A DNA stretch of 57,754 nucleotides from Chloroflexota bacterium (lineage in GTDB: Bacteria; Chloroflexota; Dehalococcoidia; Dehalococcoidales; RBG-16-60-22). Below the pieces are notes generated by a model. The model saw nothing but the letters and a program-made list of their open reading frames with translations. It ran no database searches and was not told the origin of the DNA. The stretch spans positions 1 through 57,754 of the forward strand of contig JAHJTL010000015.1 in assembly GCA_018829775.1 (NCBI GenBank), in the 5' to 3' direction. Made by a program: the position numbers and the translations under genes. Below, piece after piece: positions 56,371-57,754 of this stretch. Each line of letters opens with the position of its first letter. Within the stretch, counting starts at the first letter, position 1.

Positions 56371-57480
56371 TCACAAGCCAGGCGGCAATTCCACGCCATA
56401 TTTTTCGGAAATAGCCTTTAGGTTGCGGATGGTTCCCTCAGGTAAAGGAATTCCACTTCGAGAACGCTCGATAAAGGCTCTTTCCTCCGGTTCACCGGGA
56501 ACAAATATCTCGCTGAAACCCTCTGCCTTGGGCAGTGCTTTTATGCCATCGATAAGGTTGTCGATATGCTCCTTATAGCTTTCCAGGTCGGTAAACGTGC
56601 TGATGTCTATTGCCGCGACCACACTATTCTGAATATGTTTGGGTAAATAACTCAGTCGCTCACCTATGGCCTGGTCTTTCTTGCCTTCTGCGGGCGGCCC
56701 GATTTCACGTCCGAATAGCGCCGGCTCCAGCACCGGGTTCCCCGCCATAACGCTGGAAAGACACTCGAACATCATCGCCAGACCCGAGCCCTTGGGACCA
56801 CCGAAGGGCAACAGGGCGCCGACATTTCTGGGGTCGGTGGTGGGATTACCCTCCTTGTCCAGTGCCCAGCCCTCCGGTATAGGCATATTTTTATCCACGG
56901 CAAGCCAGAGCTTCCCACCCGCGACCACGCTGGTCGCCATGTCCAGATTGAGCGGGCGATGCCGCTTTGCCGGCACAGAAATGGCAATCGGGCTGTTGTG
57001 CACACCGGCAACTTTAGCACCGAATGGCGCCATGTTCGGTGGGTTGCAGACAATCACAATTCCCGCCATCCCCTTCTCCGCCATCATCTGCGAATAATAT
57101 CCCAGGGCACCCTGATGAGTCAGGTTGCGTATCAGCGCCCAGCCAATACCCACTTGCTTCGCCTTTTCCACCACCATATTCACCACCTTGATGGTGACCA
57201 CCGGGCCAAGGGCACGGTCAGCATCAAGCAGTATTGTTGCCGGAGTCTCTTTAATAACCTGTATATTGGGCTTTGGATTCATCACGCCCTTTTCTACGTT
57301 ATCCAGATACCAGGGAATGCGCAGCACCCCATGGGAATCAACGGCGCGCAGGTTGGCCCATATCAGCGCTCCCGCCTCGGCTTCAGCGCCTTCCGGCGGC
57401 ATACCGGCCCTGGTGAATACCTCCTTGGCGAACTCCTTCAGAGGTTCCCAGGCCACTAACTTCATTTCGCTCTCTGCCAT
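56371..57480 (-). CDS. Ldh2-family 2-hydroxyacid dehydrogenase (second copy)
   Basis: 369 residues from ATG 57480, which has AAGGAGGT at the right distance; the open frame extends 27 codons further upstream without a better start. Motifs match the paralog at 51187: WANLRAVDSHGVLRIPWYLD, RNLTHQGALGYYSQMMA, NSPIAISVPAKRHRPLNLDMAT and GPKGSGLAMMFECL. NAD(P)-dependent oxidation or reduction of a 2-hydroxy acid is expected. Different strand and own control suggest a separate substrate or condition from the first copy. Confidence 0.88.
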   Translation of the reverse strand: MAESEMKLVAWEPLKEFAKEVFTRAGMPPEGAEAEAGALIWANLRAVDSHGVLRIPWYLDNVEKGVMNPKPNIQVIKETPATILLDADRALGPVVTIKVVNMVVEKAKQVGIGWALIRNLTHQGALGYYSQMMAEKGMAGIVIVCNPPNMAPFGAKVAGVHNSPIAISVPAKRHRPLNLDMATSVVAGGKLWLAVDKNMPIPEGWALDKEGNPTTDPRNVGALLPFGGPKGSGLAMMFECLSSVMAGNPVLEPALFGREIGPPAEGKKDQAIGERLSYLPKHIQNSVVAAIDISTFTDLESYKEHIDNLIDGIKALPKAEGFSEIFVPGEPEERAFIERSRSGIPLPEGTIRNLKAISEKYGVELPPGL

Positions 57481-57595
57481 AATACCTCCTTGAACTATTG
57501 TGCAAAGTACGATTGATTTTATGATGCTGGGTCTCGGCAAGTCAAGCCAATTTGCCATCAACCACGTTTACCGTTAGAATGGTGATGCCTGATTT

Positions 57596-57634
57596 GCCCC
57601 TGTAGCTCAGGTGGATAGAGCAGCGGTTTCCTAA
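57596..57634 (+). tRNA. tRNA-Arg(CCU), 5' part only
   Basis: Acceptor strand GCCCCTG (57596-57602), TA, D-arm GCTC...GAGC (57605-57621), anticodon stem GCGGT (57623-57627) and loop TTCCTAA (57628-57634) with anticodon CCT at 57630-57632. An intact gene would continue with ACCGC; here TCTGT follows, pairing poorly, and no T-arm (GGTTCGA) or matching acceptor 3' strand appears in the remaining 120 bases. The gene is therefore split exactly after the anticodon loop. Confidence 0.75.
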
Positions 57635-57754
57635 TCTGTTGCCCACTCTAACAAACAATGCTTTCACGTACCAATTAGGACGTTTGTGTAAATTGAGAAA
57701 ATGCTGGTTTGTGTCTAGAATACCAACTTGTGTTAACCCGTTTTATTCAGTCTA
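57635..57754 (+). other. Possible attachment site or intron sequence after the split tRNA
   Basis: The motif GTTTGTGT occurs at 57682-57689 and 57707-57714 (25 bases apart), with a variant ACTTGTGT at 57726-57733 and a partial inverted form TAACAAAC at 57649-57656. ATTAGGA (57674-57680) is the exact reverse complement of TCCTAAT in the anticodon loop region. Spaced short repeats beside a tRNA anticodon loop are what a tyrosine recombinase attachment site looks like; the ATTAGGA match would also suit the guide pairing of a tRNA intron. The window ends before this can be decided. Confidence 0.35.

Follow-up and report, generated by a model that had tools for sequence, protein, structure and literature searches.

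The window analysed here—the whole stretch of 57,754 nucleotides, contig JAHJTL010000015.1 of assembly GCA_018829775.1, from a Chloroflexota bacterium of the order Dehalococcoidales—ends in one half of a tRNA gene joined to what is very probably the left end of an integrative mobile element. Positions 1-39 of tRNA-Arg(CCU) lie at 57596-57634 (GCCCCTGTAGCTCAGGTGGATAGAGCAGCGGTTTCCTAA), an identity backed by the intact tRNA-Arg(CCU) of relatives, and the gene stops exactly after its anticodon loop; it is missing from the ARAGORN calls because it is truncated. The contig (C15 of the source genome, G000) ends at 57754, 120 bp past the junction.

The same 120 bp occur with 100% identity on contig C61 of the same genome, directly after the 5′ half of a tRNA-Thr(CGU) that is likewise cut after its loop, TTCGTAA. 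When the TAA of the loop is included, the stretch common to the Arg and Thr junctions amounts to 123 bases, up to the point where the contig stops. Relatives display both sites empty. At the Thr site, they carry an M42 peptidase gene, an intact tRNA-Thr(CGU), an AP-endonuclease-family gene and ftsH in succession; in the source genome these flanks are separated, with the M42 peptidase gene on C61 and the AP-endonuclease-family gene and ftsH on C97. Intact tRNA-Arg(CCU) adjoins the malate/L-lactate dehydrogenase gene Ldh_2 in several congeners, in one of which (G004) it is also near a DnaC-like gene. In the source genome Ldh_2 is on the window contig, while C11 starts at tRNA-Arg(CCU) position 21 and then runs to the DnaC-like gene and dnaB. 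The preliminary description of this DNA had proposed a split exactly after the anticodon loop, and the relatives' intact genes, together with the identical 120 bp after tRNA-Thr(CGU), bear this out.

For the Thr insertion the other end is assembled too, on C97, where an integrase gene (int) is followed, after 83 bp, by an intact tRNA-Thr(CGU). Its product is a 400-aa tyrosine recombinase (Phage_integrase, PF00589, E 2.8e-25) with SAM-like and, more weakly matched, arm-binding domains; an excisionase-like HTH_17 gene and a second recombinase lie nearby. The Thr insertion (C61/C97) has the restored tRNA at one end and the displaced fragment at the other, the fragment forming a direct repeat, and its identity block stops at the anticodon loop, as do the direct repeats of whole elements in relatives. 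One left end after two tRNAs, intact tRNAs in relatives and flanks on separate contigs lead us to read the junction as attL, the left attachment junction, and not as an intron or a misjoin. We hold with high confidence that the window closes with the attL of an integrative mobile element that has a tyrosine recombinase and uses a tRNA anticodon loop as its site.

Within the left end, the preliminary description had picked out spaced direct repeats and an ATTAGGA read as complementary to the loop. The repeats (GTTTGTGT, 25 bp apart) and ATTAGGA are where it placed them, and a degenerate third copy, CTTGTGTT, is found at 57727-57734; the complementarity does not hold up, as ATTAGGA is part of a left-end motif present whichever tRNA is cut. 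The features are collected in Table 1. The promoter-like stretch within the left end is largely conserved across the family consensus.

Table 1. Features at the end of the window
Feature	Position	Strand	Basis
Ldh_2 (malate/L-lactate dehydrogenase) gene, chromosomal neighbour	56371..57561	-	Pfam PF02615; synteny, beside tRNA-Arg(CCU) in relatives too
Likely native tRNA-Arg(CCU) promoter, TTGCCA-17-TAGAAT, which stayed with the severed 5′ half on the chromosomal side (predicted)	57552..57580	+	consensus scan, 10/12
tRNA-Arg(CCU) 5′ half, displaced chromosomal fragment in attL	57596..57634	+	sequence; match to relatives' intact tRNA-Arg(CCU)
Anticodon loop TTCCTAA, probable 7-bp overlap region for strand exchange, anticodon stem on both sides	57628..57634	+	cleavage positions predicted
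Element left end (attL side), reaching the contig end	57635..57754	+	identical to G000:C61:65249-65368
ATTAGGA, within the conserved left-end motif (consensus CAAATTAGAAC)	57674..57680	+	alignment A1, 20 left ends at different tRNAs
GTTTGTGT copy 1, probable arm-type integrase binding repeat (predicted)	57682..57689	+	conserved as TTTTGTGT in the left-end alignment
Promoter-like TTGAGA-17-TAGAAT, reading into the element	57693..57721	+	consensus scan, 10/12
GTTTGTGT copy 2, probable arm-type repeat (predicted binding)	57707..57714	+	conserved as GTTTTGTG in the left-end alignment

Two observations in congeners concern the same sites. In G005 (C75:8799-8835, locus L145), tRNA-Thr(CGU) is also split at this loop, but the left end there is another one, with ACGTCAA repeats; the site is thus shared by unrelated elements. 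A contig of G002 (C51:14952-14989, L135) ends exactly at the tRNA-Arg(CCU) anticodon loop beside Ldh_2, and is probably another insertion.

The element family in relatives

A left-end model (R1), built from 20 left ends at different tRNAs, matches the window end with 75.5 bits (E 5.9e-22) and finds the left end in 66 of the 156 genomes of the source's order. The distinct left ends number 83: a tRNA 5′ half precedes 36 of them (direct elements) and a tRNA 3′ half on the opposite strand precedes 12 (reversed elements), with junctions at anticodon loops that are exact in the direct set; nine adjoin the tRNA-Glu(CUC) T-loop, and the remaining 26 are short or decayed or have no assigned site. The anticodon-loop targets include Arg (CCU, UCG, UCU), Thr (CGU), Ser (CGA, UGA), Leu (UAA, CAA), Trp, Lys (CUU, UUU), Met, Pro (GGG) and Ala (GGC). 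The T-loop junctions, which include loci L230, L042, L238, L194, L251, L267 and L280, carry the same left end, which gives this one family two tRNA subsites. The source genome itself holds two further family integrases, one on C45 beside tRNA-Glu(CUC), reversed, and one on C41 beside tRNA-Lys(CUU), direct (L037, L023).

A motif, TTAGCAAATTATTAGCAA, stands at a fixed 120 bp after the left end and recurs at right ends, where it lies at the stop codon of int; searching GTDB contigs with it gave matches in many Dehalococcoidia. In viral contigs the 18-bp motif was found at three loci, all read as unrelated by context.

Four related elements lie whole, each on a single contig and bounded by exact direct repeats of a tRNA half: 5861 bp at Ser-CGA, 6784 bp at Ser-CGA, 9881 bp at Lys-CUU (reversed) and 4059 bp at Ser-UGA. 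The direct repeat in the SOHS, JAFG and JAPL elements is the 39-nt tRNA 5′ half. Int, excisionase-like HTH genes, a replication-like AAA_25 ATPase and an unassigned protein, its gene overlapping the int start, are encoded by the 6.8-kb and 9.9-kb elements; the proteins searched included none recognisable as structural or conjugative. In the 5.9-kb and 4.1-kb elements int is broken; the former also has genes read as metabolic. One protein overlapping the int start, at L055:1768-2541 (257 aa), has no Pfam or PHROG match, and similarly placed proteins in other elements span 256-513 aa with weak similarity (25%, E 8e-4). The idea that the element is a defence island was dropped: six proteins were tried against PADLOC, and no match resulted.

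On a tree of 63 integrases located no more than 130 bp from an intact tRNA gene, orientation changes at least 10 times, with 7 changes forced by starred branches, and tRNA identity changes at least 38 times. The same tRNA—for example Thr-CGU, Lys-CUU or Arg-CCU—is targeted in both directions by different family members.

Proposed mechanism and a probable promoter in int

We propose that the anticodon stem-loop is what the tyrosine recombinase uses as attB, the chromosomal attachment site; the 7-bp loop would serve as the overlap region and the stem arms as core sites. Both the position of strand exchange at the loop and the binding of arm sites by the integrase are predictions. Entering on the upstream side, the element would split off the chromosomal promoter together with the tRNA-Arg(CCU) 5′ half (57552-57634), and its own copy of the 5′ half would complete tRNA-Arg(CCU) at the far end. 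The restored tRNA may then be transcribed from a promoter embedded in the int 3′ end. In the Thr copy, the restored tRNA has TTGACG-17-TATAAT inside int, 133 bp upstream.

Promoters were scored as sigma-70 consensus matches out of 12 over the 200 bp before the tRNA. In counts that come from related sequences, and so are not independent, a promoter scoring at least 10/12 precedes 26 of 39 direct elements' tRNAs against 1 of 26 for reversed ones. When int ends were recoded synonymously, 2.35 direct cases were expected at 11/12 or better, compared with 22 of 36 observed; the reversed set gave 0 of 25. The 60 bp adjoining the tRNA 5′ end show the converse, with a promoter of at least 10/12 in none of 39 direct and 9 of 26 reversed cases, where this stretch is on the chromosome side. 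The embedded promoter occurs at two places, Tyr-Asn codons near the stop and His-Ile-Ile codons farther upstream, which suggests at least two origins. Judged from sequence, direct elements usually carry a near-consensus sigma-70 promoter in the int 3′ end, and this probably takes the place of the native one.

For the family as a whole, we lean modestly towards a broader proposal: its integrases would exploit the near-symmetry of tRNA stem-loops for insertion in either direction and often swap tRNA targets and, on landing upstream, drive the host tRNA from a promoter written into the int 3′ end beyond what the protein needs.

Alternative explanations

The preliminary description had offered three options for the split tRNA—an integrated element, a tRNA intron or a misjoined assembly—of which the first stands and the other two fall away. 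An intron of group I or archaeal type, spliced from the transcript, would suit a split located in the anticodon loop, and group I introns occur in CCU tRNAs of some bacteria; however, the same sequence splits both tRNA-Arg(CCU) and tRNA-Thr(CGU), and one sequence after two different tRNA halves rules an intron out. That description had named the tRNA 3′ part downstream as the mark of an intron and an integrase gene as the mark of an element. The 3′ sides turned out to be on other contigs, a complete tRNA-Thr and a tRNA-Arg from position 21, and an integrase gene is indeed present at the far end of the Thr insertion. Moreover, no Rfam intron model matches the window end, or the left end and 1 kb beyond it in the C61 copy, and the elements of relatives, 4-10 kb long, gene-bearing and with tRNA halves duplicated at both ends, already refute an intron; we give this explanation practically no chance. 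A misjoined contig end, as an assembly artefact at a repeat, draws on the facts that the contig stops 120 bp past the junction and that the sequence there is common to two contigs. We infer that breaking after the shared stretch is how a graph assembler behaves at a repeat: it is the repeated left end that halts the contig, and the join itself is real. Homologous left ends at tRNA loops appear in many other assemblies, a single-contig chromosome included, and synteny shows the insertions to be real, which makes a misjoin very improbable.

It is also improbable that the locus is a degenerate remnant that destroyed tRNA-Arg(CCU) without restoring it. ARAGORN called no intact tRNA-Arg(CCU) in the source genome, and the integrase of the Arg copy is unseen, as a remnant would have it; however, on C11 the tRNA is present from position 21 onwards, its anticodon arm and 3′ half intact and the expected neighbours adjoining, and at tRNA-Thr, the site of the sister insertion, the restored gene is complete.

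The attL reading has several points against it. At the Arg insertion the restored 3′ side alone is visible, the far end being unassembled, and the 5′-half copy, like the integrase, is unseen. No circular form or attP (the element's own attachment site) turned up in the assembled sequences, and the integrase has no match in IMG/VR viral contigs. The two insertions could also sit in different cells through strain mixing in the metagenome-assembled genome. As for the promoter, about one third of direct elements are without a strong embedded one. When promoter and orientation were compared with the tree taken into account, just 2-3 informative independent pairs were available (median p 0.5), which leaves that test underpowered; since the counts also lack independence, promoter capture is likely but not proven.

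Relation to known systems

The element resembles the tRNA-gene islands of the Islander set (PMC4383910) in its integrase gene, its anticodon-loop subsite ('A' class), the restored gene and displaced fragment at opposite ends, and the tRNA half as direct repeat. In that set 3760 islands have a 3′ fragment and 159 have a 5′ fragment; here, in contrast, the 5′ half is the part that most elements displace, and both modes occur within a single integrase family. In archaea, the pTN3 group attaches through the 5′ half, with element-driven tRNA expression, a mode seldom met in bacteria (review, PMC8371274). The present elements share with pTN3-type integrases an identity block consisting of the tRNA 5′ half; unlike them, the family is bacterial, apparently has its promoter embedded near the int 3′ end, uses many tRNAs and switches orientation.

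The islands of Dehalococcoides, from a related host class, also bear integrases and lie at tRNA or tmRNA genes. As excerpted, the accounts of these islands describe a bvcAB island flanked by a 58-bp 3′ tRNA-Arg fragment and vcr islands at ssrA (PMC2764846, PMC3146451), and a 5′-half family of the present kind was not found in those excerpts. Tycheposons of Prochlorococcus and others (cited in PMC10872708) are likewise described as tRNA-linked, with a tyrosine recombinase and cargo genes.

In sum, this is a known kind of element in an uncommon mode, given the 5′-fragment minority in the Islander set and the rarity of the pTN3-like mode in bacteria; the combination of features was not found in the literature searched. 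If the embedded promoter is real, expression of a host tRNA depends on the sequence of a mobile element's integrase, which would favour retention of the element. In the usual description of an island in a tRNA gene, the 3′ fragment is displaced and the native tRNA promoter stays where it was—against this background, the repeated changes of tRNA and direction within one family form a natural series, setting the cost of losing the native promoter against the element's apparent solution.
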